In this document: positions 5,971 through 32,196 of the stretch, piece by piece | How positions within the stretch are numbered: position 1 is the first letter of the stretch | How the letters are laid out: each line of letters begins with the position of its first letter | From: Chromatiales bacterium | GTDB lineage: Bacteria > Pseudomonadota > Gammaproteobacteria > Thiohalomonadales > Thiohalomonadaceae | NCBI GenBank assembly: GCA_003251535.1 | Contig: QKFD01000111.1 | Coordinates: 1 to 43,133, forward strand | Direction of reading: 5' to 3' | Length of the DNA: 43,133 bases | Notes under the pieces: model-generated | What the model saw: only the letters and a program-made list of their open reading frames with translations | The model's database searches: none | What the model was told of the DNA's origin: nothing | Program-made: the position numbers and the translations under genes

Positions 5971-5992
5971 TGCCCGGGCTGGGCAGGAGATA

Positions 5993-16105: not shown

Positions 16106-16189
16106 GAATCACTCTCCAAGCAAGTTAAAGGGCGGTCAAGATGAACCATTCCTGCCTGGCTGCCAACCGTAGCGCCTCTGAGTGCCTCG

Positions 16190-17415: not shown

Positions 17416-19266
17416 GTGCCCAGCGCATCCCCCAAGCGAGAGCAGCTGCTGCGACCCATTAAGCATCTCAACGAGCTGCGCCATCTGCCGCGGGCGCTGC
17501 GCTTGGTGTGGGAGGCGGCCCCTGGACGCGCCTCGCTCTACGCCCTGCTGCTCTTTTTACAGGGGGTGCTGCCGGTCTTTTTTATCGCCCTCTCGCGCTA
17601 CTTCATCGACGGCCTCACCCAGGCCATCGATCAGCCGGGTATGGGGTGGGGGAGTTGGTGGCTGCCGGGTCTGTTGATGCTGCTGCTCTTGGCGCTGATG
17701 GAGGCGGCGGGGCAGTTTACGCCCTATATCCGTCTCCTGGTGGGGGAGCGCTGGCAGGGGCATATCTACGGCCTCTTGCAGCAGCAGGCGATACGGCTGG
17801 ATATCGGTTTTTACGAGACCACGGAGTACTACGACCTGTTACAGCGGGCCAGCAAAGAGGCGATCGATGGCCCGGTGCAGCTGTTGGAGAGCCTGGGCAA
17901 GTTGGCGCAGAACGCCATCACCTTCCTCTCTATGATGGCGGTGCTGGCGCTATTCGCCTGGTGGTTGCCGCTCATCCTGCTGTTGGGGACCGGACCGGCG
18001 CTTTCCGTCTCCCTGGCCTCTACTTGGCGTCTCCACCGTTGGCGGCTACGCACCACCGTGCTGCGGCGGCAATCCGACTACTACCACGAGACCCTGCTCT
18101 CGGCCCAGAGCGCCGCCGAGGTGCGAATCCTGGGGCTTGGTGACTACCTGCGGGAGCGGTTTGCCCGTTTGCATGGGCGGCGCTTGGGCGAGCGGGTGGC
18201 ACTGGCGCGGATGGAGTTGGCCTGGGGGCTTGGCGCCGGCCTGTTTGGCACCCTGTTGGGGGTGGCGGCGATGGCCTGGATGGCGTGGCAGGTGGCGCAG
18301 CAGCGCTTCAGCCTAGGCCAACTGGCGATGTTTTGGCAGGCGCTGAGTCAGGGGCAGAAGCTGATGCACACCCTCTTGACCCAGGTCAGCACCTTCTACC
18401 GCAGTCTGCTCTTCCTCGATGATCTCTTCTCCTATCTGGATATCCAACCGCGCCTGCGGGACCCAGAGCTGCCCCAGTCGCCCCCCCCTGGCCTGCGCGA
18501 GGGGGTGCGGCTGGAGGGGGTGGCGTTCCGCTACCCCGGTAGTGAGCGGCAGGCGCTGGCGGGGTTTGACCTGCTGCTACCGGCCGGCCAACTGGTGGCC
18601 ATTGTGGGTGAGAACGGGGCCGGCAAGAGCACCTTGGCCAGGCTCATCTGCCGGCTGCACGACCCTGATAGCGGACACATCACCTGGGATGGGATCGACC
18701 TACGGGCGATGGCGCAGGCCGATCTGCGTGGACGGATCGGTCTGCTGATGCAGCGGCCGCTGCTCTATCAGGCCAGCTGTGCGGAGAATATCGCCATCGG
18801 TGAGCTGCGCCAGCCGCCAACCGCCGAGCAGCTGGCCATGGCCGCGGCGGCCAGCGGCTTTGCTGCCGTTGCCGCGCGTCTGCCGGATGGTCTCGATACG
18901 GTGCTAGGCAAGATGTTCGGCCAGGCCGAGTTGAGCAGCGGCGAATGGCAGCGGCTGGCCTTGGCTCGTATCTTGGTGAGACAGGCCGAGCTGCTGATCT
19001 TGGATGAGCCGACCAGCGCAATGGATCCCTGGGCGGAGGCGGAGTGGATGCAACGCCTGCGTTCCGTACTGGCGGGTCGCACTGCCCTCATTATTACCCA
19101 CCGCTTTACCACCGCCATGCAGGCCGACACCATCCATGTCATGGCCGAGGGGCGCATCGTGGAATCTGGGAGCCATCGCCAACTGTTGGCGGCCGAGGGG
19201 CGCTATGCCCGCTCTTGGCGTGCCCAGATGGAGCGCCGCCAGGAGGTGGAAAGTGTTACGAGCTAA
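17416..19266 (+). CDS. ABC exporter, fused permease and ATPase
   Basis: This 616-residue half-transporter has about six transmembrane helices in residues 35-330, then a nucleotide-binding domain. Walker A is GENGAGKST at 398-406. The signature is LSSGEWQRL near 506, with Glu-Trp where Gly-Gln is common. Walker B is LLILDEP at 526-532, and the switch His lies in LIITHRF. It should work as a homodimer exporting a lipid, glycolipid or small molecule. The only plausible start is GTG at 17416, and the ribosome-binding site is weak. It opens the 13-gene run and is separated from the next gene by 9 bp, so its cargo is likely the cluster product or a lipid-linked intermediate. Confidence 0.9.
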   Translation: MPSASPKREQLLRPIKHLNELRHLPRALRLVWEAAPGRASLYALLLFLQGVLPVFFIALSRYFIDGLTQAIDQPGMGWGSWWLPGLLMLLLLALMEAAGQFTPYIRLLVGERWQGHIYGLLQQQAIRLDIGFYETTEYYDLLQRASKEAIDGPVQLLESLGKLAQNAITFLSMMAVLALFAWWLPLILLLGTGPALSVSLASTWRLHRWRLRTTVLRRQSDYYHETLLSAQSAAEVRILGLGDYLRERFARLHGRRLGERVALARMELAWGLGAGLFGTLLGVAAMAWMAWQVAQQRFSLGQLAMFWQALSQGQKLMHTLLTQVSTFYRSLLFLDDLFSYLDIQPRLRDPELPQSPPPGLREGVRLEGVAFRYPGSERQALAGFDLLLPAGQLVAIVGENGAGKSTLARLICRLHDPDSGHITWDGIDLRAMAQADLRGRIGLLMQRPLLYQASCAENIAIGELRQPPTAEQLAMAAAASGFAAVAARLPDGLDTVLGKMFGQAELSSGEWQRLALARILVRQAELLILDEPTSAMDPWAEAEWMQRLRSVLAGRTALIITHRFTTAMQADTIHVMAEGRIVESGSHRQLLAAEGRYARSWRAQMERRQEVESVTS

Positions 19267-19275
19267 GGAGAGCCT

Positions 19276-20298
19276 ATGACGATTGCACGTCAGACCCGCG
19301 CCATCACCCCACCGCCGCGGCAGCTGCTGCTGGTGGTGGTGGCCATCTGGTTAGTCTGGGGGAGCTGGATGACCCTCCACCACACCTGGGGGCTCTACGC
19401 CAAGGAGGGCTTCATGGCGGTGACCATGGTCTTTGGCTCTTTCATCGCCGGTGCAACCGCCGAGGGGGGCGGGGCGGTGGCGTTTCCCGTGATGACGCTG
19501 CTGTTCCACATCGCGCCGGCCACCGCCCGTGACTTCTCGCTGATGATCCAGTCGGTGGGTATGACCACCGCCGCCCTCTCTATCTTTCTGCTGCGGATCC
19601 CGGTGGAGCTGCGCGCCATTGTCATTGCCGGTGCCGGTGGCGCCCTCGGTATCATCTTCAGCCTCACCTACATCGCGCCGGCCATCCCACCGGTCTACGC
19701 CAAGCTCTTCTTTACCAGCTTCTGGCTCTCCTTCATCGCCGCCCTCTACTGGGTCAATCGTGACAACGAGCGCTCGGTGGCCACCCGGCTGCCCCCCTTG
19801 GGCGGCTTGGGGGGGATCACACTATTGGGCGTGGGGATGTTGGGCGGGATGGTGAGTGGCATCATCGGCACGGGGCTCGATATCACTGTCTTCTCGCTGT
19901 TGGTACTGCGCTTTCGTATCTGCGAGCGTATCGCCACCCCTACCTCAGTGGTGTTGATGGCCAGCAACTCCCTGGTGGGCTTCTTCTGGCAGGGGGCGGT
20001 ACTCGATGCCATCGCCCCCAAGGCGTGGGAGTTCTGGTGGGTCTGCATCCCGGTGGTGGTTGTCGGGGCGCCGCTGGGGGCGTGGCTGGTGCAATATCTG
20101 AGTCGCCACCGGATCCGCCACCTGCTCTACGCCTCCATCGTTGCCCAATATCTGCTAGCGCTATTTATCCTGCCGCTCACCCCCGCGCTCTATCTATTCA
20201 GTGGGGTGGTGGTGCTGAGCGGTGTCATCTTCTTTGCCTGGATGGAGCGCAGCGGTGGGTCGCTCTTCCGGCGTACACCCCAACCGGAGACGACCTGA
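19276..20298 (+). CDS. TauE/SafE (TSUP) family permease
   Basis: This 340-residue polytopic membrane protein has about eight hydrophobic helices and the TSUP pattern. The repeat halves each contain a Gly-rich entry loop (FIAGATAEGGGAVAFPVMTL near 56 and GMVSGIIGTGLDITVFSLLV near 193). TSUP proteins move sulfite, sulfonates, sulfoacetate or other small organic anions. The AGGAG ribosome-binding site precedes ATG 19276. The stop TGA overlaps the next ATG by one base (TGATG). Lying next to three sulfotransferase genes, it could handle a sulfur anion, but the substrate cannot be told from sequence. Confidence 0.85.
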   Translation: MTIARQTRAITPPPRQLLLVVVAIWLVWGSWMTLHHTWGLYAKEGFMAVTMVFGSFIAGATAEGGGAVAFPVMTLLFHIAPATARDFSLMIQSVGMTTAALSIFLLRIPVELRAIVIAGAGGALGIIFSLTYIAPAIPPVYAKLFFTSFWLSFIAALYWVNRDNERSVATRLPPLGGLGGITLLGVGMLGGMVSGIIGTGLDITVFSLLVLRFRICERIATPTSVVLMASNSLVGFFWQGAVLDAIAPKAWEFWWVCIPVVVVGAPLGAWLVQYLSRHRIRHLLYASIVAQYLLALFILPLTPALYLFSGVVVLSGVIFFAWMERSGGSLFRRTPQPETT

Positions 20299-21446
20299 TG
20301 GACTTTGCCTGGGATCCCGCGCAGCAGGCGCTCTATGAGCAGACGGTGCAGTTTGCCCGCCAGGCCCTGGGGCAGGGCTTGGCAGAGCGCGATCTCCGCG
20401 GCGAGTTTGATCGGACCGGCTGGCAGCAGTGCGGTGGCCATGGTCTGCTGGGATTGACGCTGCCGACGCAATGGGGCGGCCGCGGACTGGATCCGCTGAG
20501 TGCCGTTGCTGCCCTAGAGGGGTTGGGCTATGGCTGTGCCGACAACGGTCTGGCGCTGGCCATCGGCGCCCACCTGTGGGGCTGCGCGATGCCGCTACTG
20601 GAGTTTGGCGACCCGACCCAGCAGGCGCGCTGGCTGCCTGATCTAGCCAGCGGTAAGCGGATGGGGGCGCTGGCCATCAGCGAACCGGCCGCCGGTTCTG
20701 ATGCCCTTGCCCTGACCACTTCGGCCAGTGTCGAAGGGGAGGGCTACCGCCTGGATGGCCACAAGGTGCTCATCACCAACGCCCCGCTGGCCGATCTTTT
20801 CCTAGTGCTGGCGCGAGTGGATGCCAGCAAGGGGGCCCACGGTTTGGCGGGCTTCCTCATCGAACGCGGCACCCCTGGACTGGAGGCCGATCTACCTCAA
20901 CCGACCCAGGGGATGCGTACCGCCGGCGTGGGTGAGTTGCGTCTGAACAACTGTTGGTTGCCGGCCAGCCACCGCCTTGGATTAGAGGGGGCGGGGATGG
21001 CCATCATCACCGAGGCGATGGGGTGGGAGCGGGGCCTGATCCTGGCGCCGGTGGTGGGTGCCATGCAGCGGCAGCTGGAACAGGCCATCGCCTTCGCCCG
21101 CCAGCGGCGGCAGTTTGGGCAGGCCATTAGCCAGTTCCAGTGGGTGGCGGGTCGCCTGGTGGAGATGCGGCTGCGGCTGGAGCAGGCGCGTGGCCTGCTC
21201 TATCGCTACGCCTGGTTAAAGGGGCGTGAGCAAACGGCCCATCTGGAGGCGGCCATGTGCAAGTTGACCATCGGCGAGGCGTGGCTGGCGTCGTCACGGG
21301 ATGCCCTCCAGATCCAAGGGGGGCATGGCTATCTCGCCGGCAGTGCGGTGGAGCGGGATCTGCGTGACGCCACCGCCAGCACCCTCTACTCCGGCACCTC
21401 CGAGTTGCAGCGGCGCACCATCGCCCAGTGGTTGGGTCTGGGGTAG
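20298..21446 (+). CDS. Acyl-CoA dehydrogenase-like prolyl-S-carrier desaturase (PltE/RedW-like)
   Basis: This 382-residue flavoprotein has the acyl-CoA dehydrogenase fold. The N-terminal helical domain ends near 115. The FAD-contacting beta domain includes LAISEPAAGSDALALTTSA near 125-145. The C-terminal domain has RQRRQFGQAISQFQWVAGRL and the final ATASTLYSGTSELQRRTIAQ. Next to a free-standing adenylating enzyme and a carrier protein, it best fits the group that oxidises L-prolyl-S-carrier to pyrrole-2-carbonyl-S-carrier (PltE of pyoluteorin, RedW of undecylprodigiosin). That assignment rests on context more than on diagnostic residues. ATG 20298 is used; the frame stays open upstream inside the permease gene. 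A generic acyl-CoA dehydrogenase is the alternative. Confidence 0.8.
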   Translation: MDFAWDPAQQALYEQTVQFARQALGQGLAERDLRGEFDRTGWQQCGGHGLLGLTLPTQWGGRGLDPLSAVAALEGLGYGCADNGLALAIGAHLWGCAMPLLEFGDPTQQARWLPDLASGKRMGALAISEPAAGSDALALTTSASVEGEGYRLDGHKVLITNAPLADLFLVLARVDASKGAHGLAGFLIERGTPGLEADLPQPTQGMRTAGVGELRLNNCWLPASHRLGLEGAGMAIITEAMGWERGLILAPVVGAMQRQLEQAIAFARQRRQFGQAISQFQWVAGRLVEMRLRLEQARGLLYRYAWLKGREQTAHLEAAMCKLTIGEAWLASSRDALQIQGGHGYLAGSAVERDLRDATASTLYSGTSELQRRTIAQWLGLG

Positions 21447-21448
21447 GC

Positions 21449-23026
21449 GTGGCGCTACCGGAAACTGCCCATCTGGCGGCGTTGTTGCGTCGCAGCGCCG
21501 CCCGTTCGCCGCAGGCGGAGGCGCTGCGGGATGAGGCCGGGGCGCTGAGCTACCAAGCGCTGGATCGGCAGTCGGATCGCTTAGCCCTGGCGCTGATGGC
21601 GCAGGGGATCGGTCGCGGTCAGCGGGTGGGGATCTACCTGGCCAAATCCTGCAACGCGGTGGTGGCACTGTTCGGGATCTTGAAGTGTGGCGCCGCCTAT
21701 GTGCCGCTCGACCCCGACTCCCCCGCCACCCGCCTGGCGTTGATGGTGGAGGATGCCGCGCTGGCCGCCCTCATCGGCGATGGCGAGTCGCTGGATGCCC
21801 TCTTGCCGCACCTGCGGCAACCGCCGCCCCTGCCCATCAGCGTGGCCGGCGAGGTGACGGCGGCGGGGCGGCGCAGCGGTTGGCAGCCGAACCAAGCACC
21901 GCCTGTCAGCACCCCGCCGGCGCTGGCCGAGGAGCCGACGGCACTGGCCTATATCCTCTACACCTCCGGCTCCACCGGAGAGCCTAAGGGGGTGGCCATT
22001 AGCCACGCCGCCGCCCTCGCCTTTGTCCACTGGGCGGTGGGGCAGTTTGCCCTGCGGCCGGAGGATCGGCTCGCCTGTTCGGCGCCGCTCCACTTCGATC
22101 TCTCTATCTTCGATCTGTTGGCCGGCATCGCCGTCGGCGCTACGGTGGCGCTGGTGCCGGCCACCCGCGCCCTGTTTCCCTACGCCCTGGCGGAGTGGTT
22201 GGCGCACCAGCGCATCAGCGTCTGGTACTCGGTCCCCTCGGCCCTCATCCGCCTGCTGCACCATGGCGATCTGGCGAGTCACGACCTCTCTGCCCTGCGG
22301 CTGGTGCTATTTGCCGGTGAGCCATTCCCGCTGCGCGAACTCAATCAGCTGCGCCAGGTACTGCCGGGACCGACCTACTACAACCTCTACGGACCCACAG
22401 AGACCAACGTCTGCACGGCCTATCCGCTGCCCCCTGGTGGGGCGCCGCTGCCGGCCCCCTGTCCCATCGGGGCGGCGCGGCCGGGGATGGTGGTCTATGC
22501 CCTGGATGAGGCGGGGGCGTCGGTGGCGGTGGGGGAGTGCGGTGAACTCTACATCGGCGGCGATGGCTTGATGGAGGGGTACTGGCACCGCCCAGCGGCG
22601 ACGGCGGCGGCTTTCTGCCGCGGCCCCGCTGGTGAGCGGCTCTACCGTAGTGGGGATCGCGTGCGCCGGGAGGCGGAGGGGGGCTACAGCTTCATCGGTC
22701 GCCGCGACGCCCAGGTGAAGGTCCGCGGCTACCGAGTCGAGCTAGGGGAGATCGAGGCATCTCTCCACGACCACCCCCAACTGTATGGGGCGGCGGTGGT
22801 CCCGCTGGCCGATAGTGAGGGCGGTCAGCGTCTGCTGGCCTACTATGTGCCGATGGCAGGGGCGCCAGTGGCGGTGGCGGAGCTGATCCGTTACTGCCGC
22901 GCCAGGCTGCCGGCCTATATGGTGCCGGAGCGCTGGGAGGCGTGTGCCGCGCTGCCGCTCACCACCACCGGCAAGCTGGACCGGCAGCGGTTGCGTGCGC
23001 TGGCCGCGGCCGTATCTGTGAAATGA
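21449..23026 (+). CDS. Free-standing amino-acid adenylating enzyme, probable L-prolyl-AMP ligase (PltF/RedM-like)
   Basis: This 525-residue ANL-family enzyme shows the A-domain core motifs: A3 YTSGSTGEPKG near 171, A4 HFDLSIFD, A5 YNLYGPTETNV, A7 YRSGDRVRREA, A8 GRRDAQVKVRGYRVELGEIE, and A10 TTTGKLDR with the catalytic Lys near 508. There is no condensation or carrier domain, so it must load a separate carrier, presumably the next gene product. My manual alignment to GrsA gives the ten specificity residues D-L-F-Y-L-A-L-V-C-K. That resembles what I remember for dedicated L-prolyl-AMP ligases in pyrrole pathways; it needs checking. I chose GTG 21449, 3 bp after the previous stop; GTG 21428 is the alternative. 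Confidence 0.85.
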   Translation: MALPETAHLAALLRRSAARSPQAEALRDEAGALSYQALDRQSDRLALALMAQGIGRGQRVGIYLAKSCNAVVALFGILKCGAAYVPLDPDSPATRLALMVEDAALAALIGDGESLDALLPHLRQPPPLPISVAGEVTAAGRRSGWQPNQAPPVSTPPALAEEPTALAYILYTSGSTGEPKGVAISHAAALAFVHWAVGQFALRPEDRLACSAPLHFDLSIFDLLAGIAVGATVALVPATRALFPYALAEWLAHQRISVWYSVPSALIRLLHHGDLASHDLSALRLVLFAGEPFPLRELNQLRQVLPGPTYYNLYGPTETNVCTAYPLPPGGAPLPAPCPIGAARPGMVVYALDEAGASVAVGECGELYIGGDGLMEGYWHRPAATAAAFCRGPAGERLYRSGDRVRREAEGGYSFIGRRDAQVKVRGYRVELGEIEASLHDHPQLYGAAVVPLADSEGGQRLLAYYVPMAGAPVAVAELIRYCRARLPAYMVPERWEACAALPLTTTGKLDRQRLRALAAAVSVK

Positions 23027-23049
23027 CCTGTGTTGAGGAGCCCTGTTTC

Positions 23050-23316
23050 ATGACCGCGATTACCGATCCCGTTGCCGACTACATCCGCACTGAGTTGGCG
23101 CCGCAGAGCCAGGGCCTGGAGCTGACCCCCGACTACCCCCTGATCCAGGCGGGGCTGGTGGACTCTCTCGGCCTGTTCCGCTTGGTCACCTTTCTCCAGG
23201 ATCGCTTCGGCATCAAGATCCGGGCGCAGGAGATCGTCTTCGATCACTTTGCCACCCTCGCCGCCATCGAGGCGCTGGTGGTGGCCAAACAGCAGTCGAG
23301 CGAGGAGGCACCATGA
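23050..23316 (+). CDS. Discrete peptidyl/acyl carrier protein (PltL/RedO-like)
   Basis: This 88-residue carrier has the phosphopantetheine attachment motif GLVDSLGLFRLV, with the acceptor Ser at residue 39. The helices around it are normal for a four-helix carrier, and IRAQEIVFDHFATLAAI forms the usual third and fourth helices. It should carry the prolyl, then pyrrolyl, thioester made by its two upstream neighbours. ATG 23050 follows GAGGAG at about 10 bp; an earlier in-frame ATG at 23023 would add nine residues and is less likely. The stop overlaps the halogenase-like start by 4 bp (ATGA). Confidence 0.88.
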   Translation: MTAITDPVADYIRTELAPQSQGLELTPDYPLIQAGLVDSLGLFRLVTFLQDRFGIKIRAQEIVFDHFATLAAIEALVVAKQQSSEEAP

Positions 23317-24569
23317 ATATTCCCCAGCGTTGTGATGTGGTGGTGATCGGTGGCGGCCCCGCCGGGGCGTTGGCCGCCACCTTCCTCAGCCGCTCCGGCC
23401 ACCATGTGGTGGTGCTGGATCGGCAGCACTTCCCCCGTACCACGGTGGGTGAGAGCCTCATCCCAGATGTCTGGAAATATTGCGATGCCGCCGGGGTGAC
23501 CGAGCGGATCCTCGCCGAGGGATTTGTGCGTAAGGCGGGCGGTCTGGTGGAGTGGAACGGCGAGATGCGCACCCTGTCGTTCCGCGACTTCGGTTACACC
23601 CGCCCGGCGCTGCATGTGGAGCGGGATAGCTTCGACGCCATCCTGCTGGACCATGCCGGCAGCCAGGGGGCGGAGGTCCACCAGGGGATCACCGTCACCC
23701 GGGTGGAGACGGCCGGCGATGGGGAGCCGGTGAGGGTGGAGTTCCGACCCACGGGGAGCGAGCAGCTCAACCAGATCGAGTGCCGCTATGTGGTGGATGC
23801 CAGCGGACAGAATGCCCTCTTGGCGCGCCAGGCGGGGAGCCGGCAGCTGGATGAGGCGTTCCGCTTCATGAGCATCTGGGGTTACTTCGAAAACGCCAAC
23901 TACCTGGCGGTGGATGGGAGCGTCCACTCCGCTGCGGAGGTGACGGAGATCGCCCCCAGCACCTACGTGACCAACATCCCGGACCTGGGCGATTGGGGTT
24001 GGTGCTGGCACATCGCCCTGCGGCGCAACACCAGTGTCGGCCTCATTGTGCCGGTGGATGCGGTGAAGGGGATGCGCGATGAGAAGGAGAGCTGGGAGCA
24101 GTTCTATCTCGCCCAGTGCGCGCGCTTGCCGCGCCTGGCGCAGCTACTGGCGCCGGGCCGCTATATCCCGGGTTCGGTGCGGATCATCCGCAACTACTCC
24201 TACCGCTCTGAGCAGCTGGCCGGTCCCGGCTACTACCTCATTGGCGATGCCGCTGGCTTTCTTGACCCTATCTTCTCGGTGGGGGTGGTGTTGGCGATGC
24301 ACGGCGCCTACGCCGCCGCCTGGGCCATCGATCAGTCGCTGCGGGAGCCCCAGCGGGCCGCCGACTACCGCGCCATCTTCGCGGATCAACTCAAGGGGCG
24401 GATGGAGGTGAGCCGCGCCCTGGCACTGCCTGGTTATCAGTGCAGTGAGCAGGCCAACCGTTTGGCGCAGGATATCGTCAAGTTGACCGATAAGCAGGCG
24501 CAGGCCCTGATGCAGGCCGCCTCCCGGGCGACCGCCCGACCGCACAACTTCGACGCCCTGTTGGCGTGA
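23313..24569 (+). CDS. FAD-dependent halogenase-like enzyme (pyrrole/phenol halogenase group)
   Basis: This 418-residue flavoprotein has the FAD-binding GGGPAG at 13-18 and GESLIP at 46-51. K74 in GFVRKAGGLVEWNG sits where the catalytic Lys of PltA/CmlS-type halogenases is expected. FLDPIFSVGV near 315 matches the Fx.Px.SxG halogenase motif. The WxWxIP motif is altered: the segment near 228-235 reads WGWCWHIAL, with Ala in place of Pro. In families such as PltA these enzymes chlorinate pyrrolyl-S-carrier with FADH2, chloride and oxygen, and the carrier gene overlaps this one. The altered motif leaves open an oxygenase or an inactive relative. No flavin reductase gene is nearby. Confidence 0.75.
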   Translation: MNIPQRCDVVVIGGGPAGALAATFLSRSGHHVVVLDRQHFPRTTVGESLIPDVWKYCDAAGVTERILAEGFVRKAGGLVEWNGEMRTLSFRDFGYTRPALHVERDSFDAILLDHAGSQGAEVHQGITVTRVETAGDGEPVRVEFRPTGSEQLNQIECRYVVDASGQNALLARQAGSRQLDEAFRFMSIWGYFENANYLAVDGSVHSAAEVTEIAPSTYVTNIPDLGDWGWCWHIALRRNTSVGLIVPVDAVKGMRDEKESWEQFYLAQCARLPRLAQLLAPGRYIPGSVRIIRNYSYRSEQLAGPGYYLIGDAAGFLDPIFSVGVVLAMHGAYAAAWAIDQSLREPQRAADYRAIFADQLKGRMEVSRALALPGYQCSEQANRLAQDIVKLTDKQAQALMQAASRATARPHNFDALLA

Positions 24570-25477
24570 CGCAGCTGGGGCCGGTGCCTAGCGCGCAGTG
24601 GGGGAGGGTGGCGCTGCGCCATCTGCTCCCGGCGCCGTTGCGGCGGCGGGGGCGGCAGCTCGTCGCTCGGGGCGGGCTGCTCTGGCTCCACCTGCGCGCC
24701 AATCCCGCTTGGTTGGCGCATCGCCTCGGCCGCACCCTGGAGGGTTCGCGGCGGGTGGTGGTGGTGGGCTCCGGGCACCGGGTCGGCTCCACCTGGCTAT
24801 TTAACCTCCTGCGAGAGCTGGGGGATCTGCGCAACGCCATCGACGAGGTGCCGCCGCATCTCCACCGCTACGGTGCCCTGCTGCCGGGTAGCACCGACTA
24901 CCACTGGCTGGCGGCGATCCGCGGCTGGGCGATCCTCAAGGGGCACGCCGATCCGCCCAGCAACGCCGCGCAGGCGGCGCAGGGGCAGTTTGTCACCATC
25001 TACCGTGACCCGCGTGATGTGCTGGTCTCGGCCGCCTTTCAACGCGCCCGGCTGCCGGTGGCGCAGGGGGGGTGGGGCGAGGCGTTCCAGGCGCTATCGG
25101 TAGCGCAGCGGATCGATCGCCTGCTGGCCGATCCCTGCCCCACGCTGCTGGATGAGCTAGAGCGTTGGTACCGTACCCCGTTCGCCCTGCGGGTGAGTTA
25201 TGAGGCGCTACACAAAAGGCCCGCGGCCACCCTCGCCGGCCTGGTGGAGCCGCTGGCACTGCCGGTGACGCAGCGCCAGATCGAGGCGCTGGTCGCCCGC
25301 CATGACTTCTTTCGGGTCACCGGCCGGCGGCCGGGCGAGGCGGCCGAATCGGCGACGCGCAAGGGGATCATCGGTGACTGGCGCAACCACTTTACGCCGG
25401 CCACCTGCGCCCATTTCCGCAGCGCCCAAGGGGGGCGCTGGGGCCAGATATTGGAGGAGATGGGTTATGGCTGGTGA
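24566..25477 (+). CDS. PAPS-dependent sulfotransferase 1
   Basis: This 303-residue protein has the sulfotransferase P-loop-like 5'-phosphosulfate-binding segment GSGHRVGSTWL at 68-78. The 3'-phosphate-binding segment is YRDPRDVLVS at 146-155, and the C-terminal RKGIIGDWRNHFTP matches the RKGxxGDWKxxFT motif. These features indicate transfer of sulfate from PAPS to an alcohol or amine. The usual P-loop Lys is replaced (HRVGST). GTG 24566 overlaps the halogenase stop (GTGA). The first 50 residues are Arg/Leu-rich and amphipathic, suggesting membrane association and perhaps a lipid or glycolipid acceptor. Confidence 0.88.
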   Translation: MTQLGPVPSAQWGRVALRHLLPAPLRRRGRQLVARGGLLWLHLRANPAWLAHRLGRTLEGSRRVVVVGSGHRVGSTWLFNLLRELGDLRNAIDEVPPHLHRYGALLPGSTDYHWLAAIRGWAILKGHADPPSNAAQAAQGQFVTIYRDPRDVLVSAAFQRARLPVAQGGWGEAFQALSVAQRIDRLLADPCPTLLDELERWYRTPFALRVSYEALHKRPAATLAGLVEPLALPVTQRQIEALVARHDFFRVTGRRPGEAAESATRKGIIGDWRNHFTPATCAHFRSAQGGRWGQILEEMGYGW

Positions 25478-26354
25478 GCGGTCGGTGGCGGCTGCCGGCG
25501 GGCCTGGGGCAGACCCCATCCAGCGCATCTTTTTCGGCCACCACAAGTGCGCCACCCAATACATCAAGGCGGTGGTCAGCCGGGTTGCCGCCTGGTCCGG
25601 GATGGGGTTCGACAGTGTGGTGCTGGTGGCCCAGCCTAGCGCCGCGCCGCAGCTGTGCAACCCGCAGGGCGATGTCGCCAAGGCCGAGCTGCTCTATGTG
25701 GCCAACGCCAATGTCGAGATCACCGCCGCCTTGCGTCAGCGGGGTTCGCTCCGCGGCTTCCACGTCATCCGCGATCCACGCGATATCCTGGTCTCGGGCT
25801 ACTTCTCCCACCGCTACTCCCACCCGGTGACGGTGCACAATCGGGAGCGTATGGCGGTGTGGCGGCAGCAGTTGGCGGAGCTGCCGTCGGTGGAGGAGGG
25901 GTTGCTGCGGGAGCTGGAGTTTGCCGCGGACAACTTTGCCAATCTGGCCGCATGGTCTTATCAGCAGCCCGATATCCACGAGGTGCGCTATGAGGCGTTG
26001 ATTGCCGATCCGTTGGTGCAGTTTGGGCAGATCTTTCGCTTTCTCGGTTTCACTACGCCGCGGCATGGCTGGGGGGAGCTGGCGGATCGACTGTGGCGCC
26101 GCTACAGTATGCGCCCGCTGCGGCGGAGCACCTCGTTACCACAACCCCTGTTGCGTCGTATCCTGGATAACCACGCCTTTGAACGCAAAAGCGGTGGGCG
26201 GGCGCGGGGCGAGGAGGATGTGCGGCACCACTATCGTAAAGGGGTGGCTGGCGACTGGCGCAACTACTTTACCCCCAGAGTAGTGGCCGCGTTCAAGGAT
26301 CGTTACGGTCCGCTCTTGCTACAACTCGGCTATGAGCGATCGAGTGACTGGTGA
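25467..26354 (+). CDS. PAPS-dependent sulfotransferase 2
   Basis: This 295-residue sulfotransferase has IFFGHHKCATQYI at 21-33 as the 5'-phosphosulfate loop, IRDPRDILVS at 101-110 as the 3'-phosphate site, and RKGVAGDWRNYFTP near the C-terminus. It is clearly related to its upstream neighbour in the C-terminal motif, but the rest differs enough to suggest another acceptor or another position on the same acceptor. ATG 25467 overlaps the previous gene by 11 bp; the longer open frame further upstream lies inside sulfotransferase 1 in another frame and is rejected. Confidence 0.88.
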   Translation: MAGERSVAAAGGPGADPIQRIFFGHHKCATQYIKAVVSRVAAWSGMGFDSVVLVAQPSAAPQLCNPQGDVAKAELLYVANANVEITAALRQRGSLRGFHVIRDPRDILVSGYFSHRYSHPVTVHNRERMAVWRQQLAELPSVEEGLLRELEFAADNFANLAAWSYQQPDIHEVRYEALIADPLVQFGQIFRFLGFTTPRHGWGELADRLWRRYSMRPLRRSTSLPQPLLRRILDNHAFERKSGGRARGEEDVRHHYRKGVAGDWRNYFTPRVVAAFKDRYGPLLLQLGYERSSDW

Positions 26355-26379
26355 CGGTCACAGAGAAGGGGTGCAGACC

Positions 26380-27120
26380 ATGTCCAAAGAGCAGCGGAGA
26401 AAATTCATCCTATTTTGCCACGCCCGCACCGGCAGCTCCCTCATGGGGGCGCTGCTGGACTCCCATCCCGATCTCTTTTGGGATGGTGAATCCTTCAAGC
26501 CGTCGAAACGCTGGCGCCGGTTGGGGCGGGCCGTCGGTTGGCCGCAGCGCGCCTATCCTCTCCCCTTTCTGGAGCTGCGGGCGTTGCGCCACCGCAGCTC
26601 GACCTATGGCTGCAAGATCGCCCCCTACTACGTCACCGATCCCAAACAGCTGATCGCCCGCGCCCACCAGCACCGCTGGAGCATCGTCCACCTCTGGCGG
26701 CGGGATATCTTCCACTCCGCCCTCTCCCAGTTGGCCGCTGCCCACTACAACTACTGGGTGCGTCCGATCGAGGAGGAGCAGCCGTTGGCGGAGCCGCTGT
26801 TGAGTGTGGAGCCGGAGCGGCTGCTGCGCATGATGGAGTATCGACTGCACCTCCTGGAGCTGGAGCGCAGCGCCCTCATCGACATCCCCCACCTCAGCTT
26901 TGTCTATGAGAGCGATCTGGCCGATCCGCGGCAGTGGGAGCGTACCACCCACACCGTGTGGGAGGCGCTGGGCCTCAAGGATGTGCCGGTGCGCTCCGCC
27001 ATTGGCAAGACCTGGAATACCCCCTACGCCGAGATGTACGAGAACTACCACGAGTTGACGGCGGCAGTGCGGCGCAGCCACCTCGCCGCCTACGCCCCTG
27101 CGGCGGATGGTGCGGGCTGA
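26380..27120 (+). CDS. Sulfotransferase 3 (Stf0/NodH-like)
   Basis: This 246-residue protein carries ILFCHARTGSSLMGALLDSH at 10-29. That pattern is typical of sulfotransferases acting on glycans or glycolipids (Stf0, NodH/LpsS type). A WRRDIFHSALSQ segment near 108 stands where the 3'-phosphate-binding Arg and Ser are expected. It lacks the RKGxxGDW tail of its two neighbours, so it is a separate subfamily. I chose ATG 26380 because AGAAGGGG lies at good distance; ATG 26332, overlapping the previous stop, lacks a ribosome-binding site. An 81-bp gap follows before the acyltransferase gene. Confidence 0.75.
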   Translation: MSKEQRRKFILFCHARTGSSLMGALLDSHPDLFWDGESFKPSKRWRRLGRAVGWPQRAYPLPFLELRALRHRSSTYGCKIAPYYVTDPKQLIARAHQHRWSIVHLWRRDIFHSALSQLAAAHYNYWVRPIEEEQPLAEPLLSVEPERLLRMMEYRLHLLELERSALIDIPHLSFVYESDLADPRQWERTTHTVWEALGLKDVPVRSAIGKTWNTPYAEMYENYHELTAAVRRSHLAAYAPAADGAG

Positions 27121-27201
27121 GGCGATGCCGATCCGCCTTGCTGCCACTGGTCGATACCGCCCGTCTAGCCCGATGGGGCTGCCGAGTTGTGGAGTGGGCG
27201 G

Positions 27202-28119
27202 ATGAGTTCACGCCTCGCCCTCCTCCTTCGTGCTGTGCTGCTCAGGCTGCTGCGGCTGACCATCGCCGTTGGTCGTGGGCGCGCCGGTCTCCAGTGGTGC
27301 GGCGTTGTGGTGCGCTGGTTGGTGGCCAACCCTTGGCTGCGGCAGCGGCTGCTCGGCCAAGAGCTGGCGCTGCTGCACCGCTTTGCGGTGGTGGTGGGGA
27401 CGACGGCGATCGCGCCGGCGGAGGCAGAGCAGCGCCACGCCCAGCTGCTCCTGTTGCAGCCGCTGTTGTACCGTCTGGTGGAGCAGCCCAGCCGGGCCGA
27501 GGTGGAGCCGCTATTTGAGCTGGTGGGGGAGGCGCAGTTACAGGCCGCCCTGGGGCGCGGTCAGGGGGTGTTGTTGCTCCACAGCCACCTCCTGTTGGTG
27601 CGCACCTTCTGGTTCTGGTTGCGCTGGCAGCACGCCGATCCGGGACCTACCCTCTGGGGCTGGTCCAAGACGCGCCCAGCTGTCGAGCGGGATGACCCCG
27701 CCGTCCGCACCGTGGCGGGGGCCGCCGAGTTGGCCACGGCCCGCGAGCAGCTACTGGCCGGCGGCTTTGTCCATGTGTTGGCCGACGGCTATAAGGGGCA
27801 GCACCCGCTGACCCTCAGCTACTGTGGTCGGGAGCGACCGTTTCAGACCGGCTTCGCCGAGCTGGCGCTGCTCACCGGCGCCGCCATCCTGCCGGTGGCG
27901 GTGACCCTAACGCCGCAACTGCGGTTGAGGATCCAGATCGGCCCTGCTCTCACCCCGGCACCCTCCAGCCAGCCCCACGCGGTACGGGTGGCCCAGCTGG
28001 TGGAGGGCTATGCCGATTGGCTGCAACGGATCTATCGCACCCAACCCTACGAGATGGCCCCCTACCACATGCGGCGCCATCTGGAGCTTCCCCATGCCGT
28101 TGCCGCCGTGCGCCAGTAA
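27202..28119 (+). CDS. LpxL-like acyltransferase (LPLAT superfamily)
   Basis: This 305-residue protein resembles lipid A-type lauroyl acyltransferases. It has a hydrophobic, Arg-rich N-terminus, a central block GQGVLLLHSHLLLVRTFWF where the HX4D/E active site belongs, and the later GGFVHVLADGYKGQHPLTLS and FQTGFAELALLTGAAILPVA blocks. The expected acid five residues after the His is absent (Leu or Arg instead), so catalysis may differ or be lost. ATG 27202 is preferred over TTG 27187. In this operon it may acylate a glycolipid, or release the pyrrolyl group from the carrier onto a sugar, since no thioesterase is present. The second idea is speculative. Confidence 0.7.
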   Translation: MSSRLALLLRAVLLRLLRLTIAVGRGRAGLQWCGVVVRWLVANPWLRQRLLGQELALLHRFAVVVGTTAIAPAEAEQRHAQLLLLQPLLYRLVEQPSRAEVEPLFELVGEAQLQAALGRGQGVLLLHSHLLLVRTFWFWLRWQHADPGPTLWGWSKTRPAVERDDPAVRTVAGAAELATAREQLLAGGFVHVLADGYKGQHPLTLSYCGRERPFQTGFAELALLTGAAILPVAVTLTPQLRLRIQIGPALTPAPSSQPHAVRVAQLVEGYADWLQRIYRTQPYEMAPYHMRRHLELPHAVAAVRQ

Positions 28120-28230
28120 CCCCTGTCGTGGCCACTGGCGCAGGCGGGCACGGTCACCGCTCCGACGACAACCACCTTCTTCACCGGCGGCCTGCGGGCC
28201 TGCCCTGATGCCCACAAGGAGGGCAGCCGT

Positions 28231-29523
28231 TTGAGGATCAGCCTCTTTGGTCTCGGCTATATCGGGACGGTCTCTATCGCCTGTTTGGCACGCCTCGGCC
28301 ACCACGTGGTGGGGCTCGACAGTGACCCCGCCAAGAGCGCCCAAGTGGGGCGTGGTGAGCCGCCACCCATCCACGAGCCGGGGCTGCCGGAGCTGTGGGC
28401 CGAAGGGTGGGCGGCGGGGCGTGTCGGTATTAGCGAGGATGCCTTGGCGGCGGTGGCAGAGAGTGATCTCTCCTTCGTCTGTGTCGGTACCCCCTCTTTG
28501 CCTGGCGGTGGGGTGGACGATGGTCAGCTGCGGCAGGTGGTGGCGACCCTGGCCGAGGGGGTGGTGGCCAAGGGGCGGCGTCATCTCATTGTGGTGCGCA
28601 GCACGGCCCTGCCGCAGGTCCACCACGCCTTGATGGCGCTATTGCAGGCACGGGGCCTGGTGATCGGCCGCGATGTCGGCTATGTGGTCCACCCGGAGTT
28701 CTTGCGCGAGGGGAGCGGGATCGAGGACTTCTTCAACCCGGCGCTGCTCATCCACGGCGGTGCCGACGCCGTGGACCGCACCCTGTTGGATCAGCTCTAT
28801 CCGGGGTTGGCGCCGGCCCACTATGTGGCGTGGGAGGCGGCGGCCCTGGTGAAGTATGCCGACAACCTATTTCATGCCACCAAGATCACCTTCGCCAACG
28901 AGATCGGCCAGCTGGCCCATGGTCTCGGGGTCGATGGTCGGGCGGTGATGGGGTTGGTGGCGCGCAATCTGCGACTCAATCTGAGCGCCGCCTATCTCAA
29001 TCCCGGTCTGCCCTTTGGCGGTAGCTGCCTCCCCAAGGATCTGCGCGCCATCCTCGACCACGCCGAGCACAGCGCGCTGACACTGCCACTCTTAAGCGGC
29101 ATCGCCAGCAGCAACCAACACCAGCTGGCGCAGTTGCTGGATCGGCTGGCGCAGTTGGGTTACCGCCGCCTGCTGCTCATCGGTCTCGCCTTTAAGGAGG
29201 GGACCGATGACCTGCGTGAGAGCCCGCTGGTGCAGTTGGCGCAAGGGTTACTGACGCAGGGGGTGGAGCTGCATATCCTGGCGCCGGAGTTGCGGTATCG
29301 ATCCGCCGTGGCACCGGCAGATCCCTTACTGCCAGCGGCGCTGAATGGATGCTTGGTGAGCGATCTCGCGGCCACCCTCCCGCAGGTGGAGGCGGTGGTG
29401 ATCGGTCGCACCTTGACGCCGGAGATGCAGCGGCTGCTTGAGGCCAGTGGGCGGCCGTTGATCGATCTGGTGGGGGCGCCGCTGGCCGACGGGGTTGGCG
29501 AGACGTGCGGTCTCTACTGGTAG
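28231..29523 (+). CDS. Nucleotide-sugar dehydrogenase, GDP-mannose 6-dehydrogenase-like
   Basis: This 430-residue enzyme has the NAD-binding FGLGYIG at 6-12, HPEFLREGSGIEDF near 158, and the catalytic Cys266 in FGGSCLPKD. The spacing and the LNLSAAYLNPGLPFGGSC context look more like GDP-mannose dehydrogenase (AlgD, Cys268) than UDP-glucose dehydrogenase. It should oxidise the sugar C6 alcohol twice, making a nucleotide-activated uronic acid. Start is TTG 28231 with AAGGAGGG about 8 bp upstream. It supplies a uronate donor, presumably for the two glycosyltransferases that follow. Confidence 0.88.
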   Translation: MRISLFGLGYIGTVSIACLARLGHHVVGLDSDPAKSAQVGRGEPPPIHEPGLPELWAEGWAAGRVGISEDALAAVAESDLSFVCVGTPSLPGGGVDDGQLRQVVATLAEGVVAKGRRHLIVVRSTALPQVHHALMALLQARGLVIGRDVGYVVHPEFLREGSGIEDFFNPALLIHGGADAVDRTLLDQLYPGLAPAHYVAWEAAALVKYADNLFHATKITFANEIGQLAHGLGVDGRAVMGLVARNLRLNLSAAYLNPGLPFGGSCLPKDLRAILDHAEHSALTLPLLSGIASSNQHQLAQLLDRLAQLGYRRLLLIGLAFKEGTDDLRESPLVQLAQGLLTQGVELHILAPELRYRSAVAPADPLLPAALNGCLVSDLAATLPQVEAVVIGRTLTPEMQRLLEASGRPLIDLVGAPLADGVGETCGLYW

Positions 29524-29538
29524 CGGGGCGCGCCGTCG

Positions 29539-30861
29539 ATGCACATCATCTTTTTTGTCCACGATACCCCCCGCCCCGTGGGCAATGGTAGTCACCACCG
29601 CGCCTATCAGGTGGCCCACGACCTCCGGGCGGCGGTGGGGGAGGAGCGATTCACCCTGTTTGACTACTCCGCCGAGTTGGCCAGCCTGAGTGGCGGCGAG
29701 GGGGCCACGGGGGGATCCCTGACTTGGCGCCAGTGGTTGGTGCGGGTGGCCCCCGCTGGGGTGGTGGCGAGCTTGCGGCGGGGATACCGGGCCCTGCGGC
29801 AACTGGTCGCCCGCGCCCGCTTGGGGCGTAAGCTGCTCTGGCTGGCGTTGGGGGGGCCGCTCGGGGCACCGCCGCCCGGCCCCAATCGGGTGCTCGATCG
29901 CTACGCCGATCCCCGCATCTTCGCCCGCTATCGCCAGCGGGTGGCCGAGCTGCCGCGCCCGCTCATCTGTGTGGTACGCCACAGTAGCTTTGCCCGCCTC
30001 GCCTGGTTCAATGCCCGCCTTGGTATCCGCACCGTCGCCTGCCCGGCCAACCTGGAGGCGTTTGATGTCGGTGCCGGCACCTTGCGGGGCAGCGCTCGGG
30101 AGTGTCAACTCACCGCCCTCGACTTCAGCGACGAGCTGCGGGCGCTGGCCGCCTGCGACGCCCGCCTCTTCATCTCCCGGGTAGAGACTGGCCTCGTCAA
30201 CGGCCTCGGCTTCCCCTCCCACTACTACCCCTACCAGCCGGTGGGGGAGATCGCCGCCACCCTACAGCGGATCCGCGCCGAGCGGCGTAGGCGCCCGCCC
30301 GTAGCGGGGTTGTTGGTGATGCTTGGCAGCGGTTATCACCCCACCACCGGCGCCTCGTTTCGCTGGTTTTTACGCCAGACCCAGCGTTATGGCCTGCCGG
30401 CGGGGGTGCGGCTGGTGGTCTGTGGGCACGCGACCGATCGACTGCTGGCGCCGGCGGAGCGACCGGCCCATGTCGAGCTACGCGGCTGGGTCGAGCAGGC
30501 GGAGTTGGATGCCCTGCTGGCCACTGCCCAGGGGGTGCTGCTGCCGCAGCAGATCGGTTTCGGCGGTCTGACCCGACTGGCAGAACTCGCGTGTGCCGGG
30601 ATCCCCTGTGCCGTGTCGGAGCACGCCAGCTACGCCATCACCCCATTACCACCGGGGGTGGTCCCTGTGGCGGATGAGTGGGCCGCTTGGTGGGCGGTGA
30701 TGCAGCAGCTACCCGCCGCTGCCGAGACAGAGGCCTACCAGGCGTGGGCCGCGCAACAGGACAACCCTTGGCAGCGACTCCTGGCGGCCCTCGATCCCGA
30801 TGCCACTCCACCGCCGCCCAGTGGGGCGGCGGCGCGGGGCGCGTCCCGCCACCCCGCCTAA
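29539..30861 (+). CDS. Glycosyltransferase-like protein (GT-B fold, GT4-type)
   Basis: This 440-residue protein begins like many GT-B enzymes (MHIIFFVHDTPRPVGNGSHHR, a Gly-containing acceptor loop). It has a C-terminal half with the nucleotide-sugar-binding layout: GLLVMLGSGYHPTTGA near 255, VELRGWVEQAELDALLATAQGVLLP near 313 and GGLTRLAELACAGIPCAVSEHA near 345. The usual E-x7-E motif is not well formed, so the exact family is uncertain. It follows the dehydrogenase gene by 15 bp and is 5 bp from the next gene. It may add a hexose or uronic acid to the cluster's acceptor. Confidence 0.7.
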   Translation: MHIIFFVHDTPRPVGNGSHHRAYQVAHDLRAAVGEERFTLFDYSAELASLSGGEGATGGSLTWRQWLVRVAPAGVVASLRRGYRALRQLVARARLGRKLLWLALGGPLGAPPPGPNRVLDRYADPRIFARYRQRVAELPRPLICVVRHSSFARLAWFNARLGIRTVACPANLEAFDVGAGTLRGSARECQLTALDFSDELRALAACDARLFISRVETGLVNGLGFPSHYYPYQPVGEIAATLQRIRAERRRRPPVAGLLVMLGSGYHPTTGASFRWFLRQTQRYGLPAGVRLVVCGHATDRLLAPAERPAHVELRGWVEQAELDALLATAQGVLLPQQIGFGGLTRLAELACAGIPCAVSEHASYAITPLPPGVVPVADEWAAWWAVMQQLPAAAETEAYQAWAAQQDNPWQRLLAALDPDATPPPPSGAAARGASRHPA

Positions 30862-30866
30862 GCCAG

Positions 30867-32012
30867 ATGTCCCGCCACCCCCCCACCCCCCCTATCCCAC
30901 CGGCCGCGTTGCCGATCACCCCCGCTGATCAGGGGGACGCCGCGGGGCGGCAGCTCACCCTGTTCGCCTCCACCGGCCTGTGCAATCGGCTGTTGGTTCT
31001 GCTCTCCGGTACCATTTTGGCGCGGGCGACAGGGCGCCAGCTGCGGCTGCTCTGGCCCATCACCCCCGCCTGCGGGGCCGCCTTTGATGAGCTGTTCAGC
31101 AACCCCTGGCCGGTGGAGGTGGTGGATCAGGAGGTGATCGAGCCGCTGCCCTACTACCGGGGGTGGTTCGATCCCCTGCCCGATCTCACGGCGGTCGAGC
31201 AGCCGCAGCTGGTGGTGGGTTTCTGCGGTTGGTTGCTACTCCCACAGCGCTATCCCCACCACCGGCCGCTATGGGCGGCGGCCCACGCCCTCGCCCTGGA
31301 GCTGCAACCCATCCCGCCGCTCCAGGCGACCATCGACGCCTTCATCCGCGACCACTTCCGCCCCACCATGATTGGGGTCCACCTGCGCCGTGGTGACTTC
31401 CTCCAGGCCCGGCCCGATCTGGCTGGCAACATCGGGCCGGCGCTGGCGGCGGTTGACCACTATCTAAGCCAGTGGCCGGAGGCGGGGATCTTCCTCAGTA
31501 GCGACGACGGTGCCCCTGAACCCTACAGCGCGCACCAGTACCACCGGCAAGGGGTGCATGAACGGTTCCGCCAGCGCTATGGCGAGCGGGTGGTCTGGAC
31601 CACCCCGGAGTCGCTCGATCGCTGCGCCGCCGGCGCCATCCAGGCGGCGGTGGTGGACCTCTGGTTGCTGCGCGCCACCAACTGCTTGGTCGGCAGCGAG
31701 GGCAGCTCCTTCTCCGAGTTTGCCCTGTGTGGCCGCCAACGCCCCCACCGTCTCATCGCCGCCCCTCTGCCCGGTTACCGGCGGTGGGAGCGGTGGGCCA
31801 AGTGGAGCGGGCTCCACCGCCTACTGATGGCACTGGGGCGCCGCCACAGCGGACGCACCCTGCCATTCCCTGTGGTGTTTGAACACTACCTGCGGCGTGT
31901 GCCGAGTCTGTGGCTGCGCCGCTTGGCCCACGCCAGCTGTCCACCCTGCTATCGGCTGCTACAGCGGATGCGGCGGCGCTGGTGGGCGCGGCGGGCCCAA
32001 GCGGAGCGTTAG
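30867..32012 (+). CDS. Fucosyltransferase-like glycosyltransferase (NodZ/GT23-like fold)
   Basis: This 381-residue protein has the N-terminal pattern TGLCNRLLVLLSGTILARAT and a central IGVHLRRGDFLQ near 170, the HxRxGD donor-binding motif of NodZ and related alpha-1,2/1,6-fucosyltransferases. GSEGSSFSEFALCG near 280 corresponds to their C-terminal conserved segment. The Arg-rich C-terminus could hold it to the membrane. No GDP-fucose synthesis gene is present, but GDP-mannose chemistry is implied by the dehydrogenase. The true donor is unknown. ATG 30867 begins 5 bp after the previous stop. It is the last gene of the tight operon. Confidence 0.75.
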   Translation: MSRHPPTPPIPPAALPITPADQGDAAGRQLTLFASTGLCNRLLVLLSGTILARATGRQLRLLWPITPACGAAFDELFSNPWPVEVVDQEVIEPLPYYRGWFDPLPDLTAVEQPQLVVGFCGWLLLPQRYPHHRPLWAAAHALALELQPIPPLQATIDAFIRDHFRPTMIGVHLRRGDFLQARPDLAGNIGPALAAVDHYLSQWPEAGIFLSSDDGAPEPYSAHQYHRQGVHERFRQRYGERVVWTTPESLDRCAAGAIQAAVVDLWLLRATNCLVGSEGSSFSEFALCGRQRPHRLIAAPLPGYRRWERWAKWSGLHRLLMALGRRHSGRTLPFPVVFEHYLRRVPSLWLRRLAHASCPPCYRLLQRMRRRWWARRAQAER

Positions 32013-32196
32013 CGTTGGGGTCTGTCACCGCTGCCAGCGGGAGACGGGGAACTCAGTGCTGGCGGACGCCGCGGGCTATATTGCCATCCAAGGCCGCGCT
32101 GGTGCAGCGTAGTGGCCCCAGCGCCACCGATGGTGGGCCGTGGGGCAGCGAGGGTGGGGGGGGCCGTCAGCAGCAGACAAGGAGGGAAAAGCGCCG

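Follow-up and report, generated by a model that had tools for sequence, protein, structure and literature searches.

What could a gammaproteobacterium make with an operon in which genes related to those of pyrrole antibiotics run into genes for sulfated sugars? The question is raised by a 43,133-nucleotide stretch of DNA from a Chromatiales bacterium (hereafter the window, which is contig C25 of a 130-contig, 4.63 Mb genome), whose + strand carries 13 genes at positions 17416-32012: an exporter and a permease, a ligase, carrier and dehydrogenase of pyrrolyl-carrier type, a halogenase-family flavoprotein, three sulfotransferase-like proteins (ST1-ST3), an LpxL-like acyltransferase, a sugar dehydrogenase and two glycosyltransferase-like proteins (GT1 and GT2; Table 1). 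A preliminary description of this DNA had reported co-directional genes that mostly overlap or lie within 25 bp of each other, and this observation is confirmed at 10 of the 12 junctions. With the starts of the dehydrogenase (20298), carrier (23050), ST2 (25467), LpxL-like (27202) and GT2 (30867) genes refined from translations, the junctions measure, in gene order, +9, -1, -19, +23, -4, -4, -11, -23, +81, +111, +15 and +5 bp, the two exceptions being those between ST3 and the LpxL-like gene (81 bp) and between the latter and the sugar dehydrogenase gene (111 bp); 743 bp separate the operon end from the next gene. The interpretation then given, a (halo)pyrrolyl-decorated, sulfated and uronate-containing glycolipid, is partly supported.

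On balance, and with modest confidence, we favor the reading that the product of the operon is an exported sulfated glycan or glycolipid bearing a proline-derived, probably halogenated, pyrrole-2-carbonyl ester. In the predicted order of steps, L-proline would be adenylated by the ligase and loaded onto the stand-alone carrier, the prolyl thioester would be converted into a pyrrolyl (or pyrrolinyl) thioester by the dehydrogenase, and the flavoenzyme would halogenate this group while it is still on the carrier. The LpxL-like enzyme could then transfer the pyrrolyl group to a hydroxyl of a glycan, a presumed acceptor built by two or three of the sulfotransferases, the sugar dehydrogenase and the two glycosyltransferases, and the MsbA-like ABC protein may export the product. 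What the sequences show is the family membership of the enzymes of the first three steps, the pocket of proline type, the motifs of the sulfotransferases and the recurrence of the linkage; the reactions of this particular copy and their order, the acceptor, the halogen and the export are predicted.

Table 1. The 13 operon genes, their positions in the window and the matches on which their names are based
Predicted product	Position	Strand	Evidence
ATP-binding cassette (ABC) exporter, MsbA-like, permease fused to ATPase	17416..19266	+	PF00005 1.5e-31; MsbA_lipidA is top NCBIfam model, 264 bits vs cut-off 602
TSUP/TauE-SafE permease	19276..20298	+	PF01925 6.9e-18, passes cut-off
Prolyl-carrier-protein dehydrogenase, acyl-CoA dehydrogenase family	20298..21446	+	PDB 4irn 404 bits; NCBIfam PigA 368 bits
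L-proline-type adenylating enzyme (ligase)	21428..23026	+	TIGR01733 passes cut-off; PDB 6o6e_B 357 bits; code DLFYLALVCK
Stand-alone type II carrier protein	23050..23316	+	PF00550 24.6 bits vs cut-off 20.8; motif GLVDSLGLF
Flavin-dependent halogenase-family protein	23313..24569	+	PF04820 1.4e-27, 97 bits vs cut-off 21
Sulfotransferase 1 (ST1)	24566..25477	+	PF00685 39.5 bits vs cut-off 22; motifs RDPRDVLVS, RKGIIGDWRNHF
Sulfotransferase 2 (ST2)	25467..26354	+	PF00685 54.8 bits; motifs RDPRDILVS, RKGVAGDWRNYF
Sulfotransferase-like 3 (ST3)	26332..27120	+	PF13469 20.6 bits vs cut-off 27
LpxL-like acyltransferase, proposed pyrrolyl-carrier-dependent O-acyltransferase	27202..28119	+	PF03279 0.0023, below cut-off
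Nucleotide-sugar (probably UDP-hexose) 6-dehydrogenase	28231..29523	+	TIGR03026 280 bits vs cut-off 190
Glycosyltransferase-like protein 1 (GT1)	29539..30861	+	GT-B type by eye alone; no Pfam match
Glycosyltransferase 2 (GT2), NodZ/FUT8-like	30867..32012	+	HLRRGD motif; Foldseek of low-confidence model

Pyrrolyl-carrier genes and the flavoprotein

Comparison of the encoded proteins supports the assignment of the ligase, carrier and dehydrogenase to a proline-type pyrrolyl-carrier trio, as the preliminary description had proposed. Among the seven PDB matches of the ligase at E 1e-80, the L-proline--PCP (peptidyl carrier protein) ligase 6o6e_B was the only stand-alone ligase; multi-domain synthetase chains outscored it in total, the printed domains of the first chain scoring 49, 176 and 231 bits. 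The ten pocket residues, located via motif positions, read DLFYLALVCK, a code that was identical in 4 of 12 related loci (L051, L035, L034 and L037; L034 contains ketosynthase-like genes by eye) and differed at one or two positions in L053, L054, L056 and L033. Larger differences were found in L030, L031, L032 and L036, which are not counted as proline-type; there, relatives of the prolyl dehydrogenase stand beside ligases with other codes (e.g., DIFFLGVGCK) and near genes resembling nonribosomal peptide synthetases (NRPS), possibly for another substrate. The codes of L063, L065, L067 and L072 were taken from short motifs alone, outside the alignment. Within the window's own genome, seven other adenylation domains were tried, and all five that could be read carry codes unlike DLFYLALVCK, while L002 and L004 were unreadable, probably through being on the wrong strand, and were dropped from the comparison. 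The code had no match in the open-access literature search, and tblastn of A1 gave none in viral contigs.

The carrier contains the phosphopantetheine serine within its GLVDSLGLF motif, and its PDB matches are peptidyl carrier proteins, including PltL and PigG, while in NCBIfam it scores highest, though below cut-off, with the model of an ornithine-lipid acyl carrier. For the dehydrogenase, the PDB ranking is led by the prolyl-ACP (acyl carrier protein) dehydrogenase 4irn (404 bits), followed by 6cxt_B, named butyryl-CoA dehydrogenase (276 bits), and the L-prolyl-PCP dehydrogenase 5zw0 (260 bits), and the top NCBIfam models are PigA (368 bits, cut-off 500) and L-prolyl-PCP dehydrogenase (355 bits, cut-off 650), both of which we take to describe pyrrole-forming enzymes.

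The flavoprotein belongs to the halogenase family, so that the earlier label stands at family level. Its PDB matches are 8zop, CmlS, 3e1t and PltA, and it is 42.6% identical over 385 residues to Hal2 of locus L051. Both the lysine aligned with CmlS Lys71, presumably the catalytic lysine, and the FLDPIFSVGV stretch are kept.

Linkage with glycan genes in the window and in other genomes

The second half of the operon encodes the putative glycan enzymes. ST1 and ST2 share RDPRD.LVS and RKG..GDWRN.F, motifs that we take to bind 3′-phosphoadenosine-5′-phosphosulfate (PAPS), and two of the three sulfotransferases named at first are thereby upheld, with ST3 falling below its Pfam cut-off; the matches of ST2 to sulfotransferases in the PDB were weak (best 8.8e-5). 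The sugar dehydrogenase had been called GDP-mannose-dehydrogenase-like, which is corrected here to a general NDP-sugar dehydrogenase nearer to UDP-glucose models: of the narrower NCBIfam models, the two that score highest both describe UDP-glucose 6-dehydrogenases and stay below cut-off, and no GDP-mannose model occurs among the six NCBIfam models listed. For GT1, a PDB sequence search returned four weak matches, none of them a glycosyltransferase (best E 0.14). GT2 may have a NodZ/FUT8-like fold, judged from a low-confidence predicted model (pLDDT, the predicted local distance difference test, 52), since all 50 Foldseek matches listed are fucosyltransferase structures with NodZ on top (E 1.1e-9); its Pfam matches to O-FucT (15.9 bits vs 31.5), GT11 and NodZ lie far below cut-off, and tblastn against plasmids gave no match. 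Altogether, 9 of the 13 proteins pass Pfam cut-offs, and the four that fail are the LpxL-like protein, ST3, GT2 and GT1.

The link between the two halves recurs outside the window. A scan of genome contigs gave four dehydrogenase relatives, the closest (59% identity over the best segment) on a 3.1 kb contig of a metagenome-assembled genome (MAG) of Litorilinea, Chloroflexota (G385), where the gene order, LpxL-like (cut at the contig end), GT2 and dehydrogenase, differs from that of the window. In this locus (L015), GT2 is 45-46% identical to the window protein and the LpxL-like protein 31% identical over 113 residues (E 2e-9 to 1.7e-8). Chance adjacency of the operon halves is less likely because the linkage of LpxL-like, GT2 and dehydrogenase genes recurs in another phylum. 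A misbinned Chloroflexota contig is also a less likely origin of the window, which holds queA-tgt-yajC-secD-secF-like genes (by eye). The composition of the set of relatives points to Gammaproteobacteria.

The LpxL family employs carrier-bound fatty acyl groups. On contig C154 of the same Litorilinea MAG, a single frame encodes a 964-aa protein with AMP-binding, PP-binding and Lip_A_acyltrans domains. The Lip_A_acyltrans domain passes its Pfam cut-off, and this LpxL part shares 43% identity with the LpxL-like protein of L015. This fusion argues that this LpxL branch draws its acyl group from an adenylation-loaded carrier, which in the fusion itself may bear proline or another substrate. In the locus of the fusion (L025/L084), a second adenylation protein comes next. 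In the other genomes tested of the family of G385, none of 14 gave an LpxL-family match at E 0.01.

Two further loci were found in the same phylum. In G473, a dehydrogenase gene is followed in turn by genes for PaaK-like, ligase, Hal1, sulfotransferase, Hal2, carrier, polysaccharide-deacetylase-like (by eye) and LpxL-family proteins. Beyond these come WbqC-like (by eye), sulfatase, flippase, polymerase and GT4 genes, and more sulfotransferases lie upstream. G1109, from the same family, has a copy of this locus (73-94% identity in the genes compared) that keeps the dehydrogenase and carrier and has no Hal2 in that position. Both are polysaccharide loci with trio, halogenases, sulfotransferase, LpxL-family protein, flippase and polymerase, and their LpxL-family proteins score 45.6 (G473) and 53.9 bits (G1109) against a cut-off of 22.3. 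In the family of G385, the dehydrogenase was found at E 1e-80 in 4 of 46 genomes, namely G385, G1101, G1104 and G1099, which by eye has a PKS (polyketide synthase) context. G1101 and G1104 each have a ligase, a carrier, halogenase-like genes, a sulfotransferase and two Acyl_transf_3 proteins; their glycosyltransferases were recognized by Pfam in the case of G1101 and by eye or BLAST in that of G1104. In G273, G837 and a Microvirga plasmid, the trio lies near glycosyltransferases and homologous large membrane proteins (Microvirga vs G837, 34% identity; G273, 27-29% to the others). By eye, these proteins appear to consist of an MBOAT-like part and an SGNH-like end and resemble a DltB-DltD pair; Pfam and PDB sequence searches gave no support for MBOAT, and a GDSL match was found in the Microvirga protein only, below cut-off.

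There is thus a good likelihood that the pyrrole half and the glycan half belong together, a coupling proposed at the outset and supported by the Litorilinea contig, the G385 fusion and G473. Nine loci, the window included, were labelled glycan, each with one of these kinds of candidate acyltransferase: LpxL-like in four, Acyl_transf_3 in two and the membrane protein in three. More tentatively, and with somewhat less than an even chance in our estimation, at least two phyla may share an undescribed decoration of surface glycans, in which a carrier-made (halo)pyrrole would be moved to often sulfated glycans by one of several acyltransferases that replace each other (Acyl_transf_3, the large membrane protein or an LpxL branch that lacks the catalytic acid), as a pyrrole counterpart of D-alanylation of which the window would be a compact example. 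Each of the protein families involved has been described before. Neither their combination nor its repeated appearance beside different acyltransferases in loci for surface glycans is among the literature matches listed, and no such pathway appears among the titles listed from open-access literature searches, which miss most subscription papers.

Among 369 genomes of the class, 6 have the dehydrogenase at E 1e-72, as do 2 of 398 genomes of the phylum at E 1e-85 (own genome included in both) and 6 of 301 genomes of the phylum of G385 at E 1e-80. None of 19 same-family genomes gave a match to the desaturase (E 1e-60) or to the halogenase profile (E 1e-30). GT2 relatives are rare, with 2 in 251 genomes of the phylum of G385 and 2 in 398 of the window's phylum, the latter comprising its own genome and a weak second match (2e-13). 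In a tree of 28 dehydrogenases, the window and Litorilinea proteins are sisters (100/99) and are joined by that of Microvirga (97/94). The glycan label changes four times on this tree, compared with 7.3 times in shuffles, 3 of 500 of which were as low, and the glycan rows do not form one clade. Glycan and PKS/NRPS labels were given by eye, BLAST and Pfam, with 6 of the 28 rows ungrouped; L052 (dehydrogenase, no ligase match) and L055 (trio, context unclear) were left unlabelled.

Genes for HupE/UreJ-type proteins occur near dehydrogenase and carrier genes in L032 (8054-9202, by eye), L036 (6402-7538) and L091 (10520-11695), the last two being annotated, near-identical loci. G1111, G1112 and G1113 were rejected as trio loci, having long proteins with two dehydrogenase stretches. 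In L074, L075 and L076, two acyl-CoA-dehydrogenase stretches lie in one frame, with PaaK-like neighbours in two of the three loci.

Counter-evidence and alternative explanations

Several observations weigh against the proposed pathway. The window LpxL-like protein scores 17.6 bits against the PF03279 gathering score of 22.3, as compared with 45.8 bits in L051 and 29.2 in the G385 fusion, which pass, and 18.5 in L015, which fails. The HX4D/E motif, presumably the catalytic pair of this family, retains its histidine and has lost its acid in all five aligned LpxL-like proteins (by eye). Given the low score and the absent acid, the activity of the window protein is uncertain. It has no BLAST link with the LpxL-family protein of G473 (best E 3.1), and its AlphaFold model has a pLDDT of 44. 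Furthermore, LpxL-family proteins are common, the PF03279 cut-off being exceeded in 33 of 58 genomes searched, so that LpxL adjacency alone is weak evidence. The role of the TauE-like permease in the pathway is unexplained, and the Litorilinea MAG gave no halogenase match at E 1e-30. On a 4.5 kb contig in G607, relatives of GT2 and ST3 stand side by side (ST3 32% identity, 6e-34) and the trio is missing, from which it follows that the glycan half can perhaps exist without the pyrrole half. The preliminary description had named sulfotransferase and glycosyltransferase genes kept without the first half as evidence to the contrary, and this contig is a partial case of it. G607 is not among the six dehydrogenase matches in the phylum of G385, in a result that does not name every genome searched.

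Also on the unfavorable side, no Wzx or Wzy domain was found by Pfam in the 13 genes, and the dehydrogenase, often with the whole trio, occurs elsewhere in PKS/NRPS loci: by eye in G232, G171 and G312 (other pocket codes), G266, G1042, G1035 and G1099, and in annotated plasmid loci of Streptomyces, Brasilonema and Methylocystis, and a Mycetohabitans locus has a ketoacyl-ACP synthase (KAS) III gene. Both findings would fit a product that is itself a small molecule, for example an antibiotic or signal containing pyrrole, released free, with glycosylation and sulfation as tailoring as in aminocoumarins, and in clorobiocin the same pyrrole group sits on the deoxysugar of a small molecule (sections of PMC11218499). 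Nevertheless, no PKS, condensation or thioesterase domain, nor any other core-forming domain, was found in the 13 genes, as had been noted at first, and relatives lie within a flippase and polymerase locus and in other glycan loci, so that we regard this explanation as unlikely, though it keeps some weight.

About equally unlikely is that the acyl group stays a pyrroline (or prolyl) group, the flavoenzyme being a hydroxylase or oxidase and the glycan bearing a different proline-derived acyl group. The top solved match of the dehydrogenase, 4irn, is an anatoxin-pathway enzyme that halts at pyrroline, and the window protein stays below the cut-offs of all 22 NCBIfam dehydrogenase models listed, including the equivalog level for prolyl-carrier dehydrogenases. 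The WxWxIP motif, which we take to be characteristic of flavin-dependent halogenases and which is present in the five other aligned proteins, is altered to WCWHIAL in the window, without the proline, similar to WAWHIVL in Hal2 of L051. However, the lysine and the FLDPIFSVGV stretch are retained in the flavoprotein, and it is the models of presumably pyrrole-forming enzymes that lead the NCBIfam ranking.

Less probable still is that the glycan is anchored by a common fatty acid, supplied by the LpxL-like enzyme, and that the pyrrole is moved by another protein or released. The family name of the G473 relative is lipid A acyltransferase, and a lipid-anchored product is suggested by the exporter, the top NCBIfam model of which is MsbA, below cut-off; against this, a relative of the LpxL-like protein is fused to adenylation and carrier domains, and Pfam found no other acyltransferase domain in the 13 genes. 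The least probable explanation, two unrelated neighbouring pathways for a pyrrole small molecule and a sulfated glycan, would agree with the G607 contig, the 81 and 111 bp gaps and the trio in loci of other kinds, but has against it the junctions from dehydrogenase to ST3 that overlap or span at most 23 bp, the independent order LpxL-GT2-dehydrogenase in Litorilinea and the presence of both halves in G473 and G1109.

Relation to known systems and surroundings of the operon

Known type II pyrrolyl-carrier pathways feed PKS, prodiginine or aminocoumarin assembly. The operon resembles them (PltF/PltL/PltE, PigI/PigG/PigA and CloN4/N5/N3) in its proline ligase, stand-alone carrier and acyl-CoA-dehydrogenase-like oxidase, and its predicted halogenation on the carrier resembles that in pyoluteorin. 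Unlike them, it continues with sulfotransferases, sugar enzymes and the LpxL-like acyltransferase. In Dlt D-alanylation (DltA, DltC, DltB and DltD), an amino-acid ligase and a carrier feed the decoration of a surface polymer. Similarly, the ligase and carrier of the operon are proposed to feed surface decoration, and Microvirga, G837 and G273 add the large membrane protein that looks DltB-DltD-like by eye, whereas the window has no such protein (no DltB-like membrane acyltransferase domain in the 13 genes by Pfam) and has an extra desaturase and halogenase.

The closest chemical precedent seen is clorobiocin, where, according to sections of PMC11218499, CloN4/N5/N3 have their roles in the pathway and, as in coumermycin, a pyrrole-2-carboxyl group passes from a carrier to a sugar hydroxyl through CloN2, CloN1 and CloN7, of which CloN7 is an acyltransferase. 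Clorobiocin thus uses a second carrier with CloN2/CloN7, whereas the operon has one PP-binding match in 13 genes and the LpxL-like candidate. The closest architectural precedent seen is the clusters for aryl polyene lipids, in which, according to the proposal in sections of PMC8253772, ApeD and ApeJ (acyltransferase and glycosyltransferase/acyltransferase) couple a carrier-bound specialized acyl group with an anchor in the envelope. Their acyl group is a polyene, and the gene table of that source includes neither a proline trio nor a halogenase or sulfotransferase. An aryl-polyene-like cluster is also present in the window's own genome on C62 (L083, 68000-86000) with carrier, ligase, LpxL-like acyltransferase and large exporter-like protein, all by eye, and an LpxL-family match. 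Among marine pyrroles, sulfated lamellarins, a massadine sulfate and starfish pyrrole oligoglycosides are described in PMC8471394, whose passages on glycolipids, glycosides and sulfates mention no bacterial glycan esterified with a proline-derived pyrrole.

If the proposed pathway is true, the pyrrole-carrier chemistry of antibiotics and pigments would serve to decorate sugars of the cell surface as well, and sulfated bacterial glycans would contain halogenated heterocycles. Orphan trios of ligase, carrier and dehydrogenase in polysaccharide loci would then have a testable role, and so would the LpxL branch without the usual acid.

The region around the operon (16900-33000) gave no match to a sigma-70-like promoter and five to terminator-like sites, compared with shuffle means of 2.1 and 7.4, which says nothing firm on transcription. 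Upstream, positions 210-15515 hold the queA-tgt-yajC-secD-secF-like genes and an RND (resistance-nodulation-division) efflux set, by eye, and a two-component system by Pfam. Immediately before the operon (16100-17060) lie pieces of a gene resembling major facilitator superfamily transporters, with broken frames by eye, and two open reading frames there have no Pfam match. Downstream, at 32756-34960, is a lipoprotein-like protein of 734 aa with a C-terminal pilin domain (PF00114, 1.1e-7).

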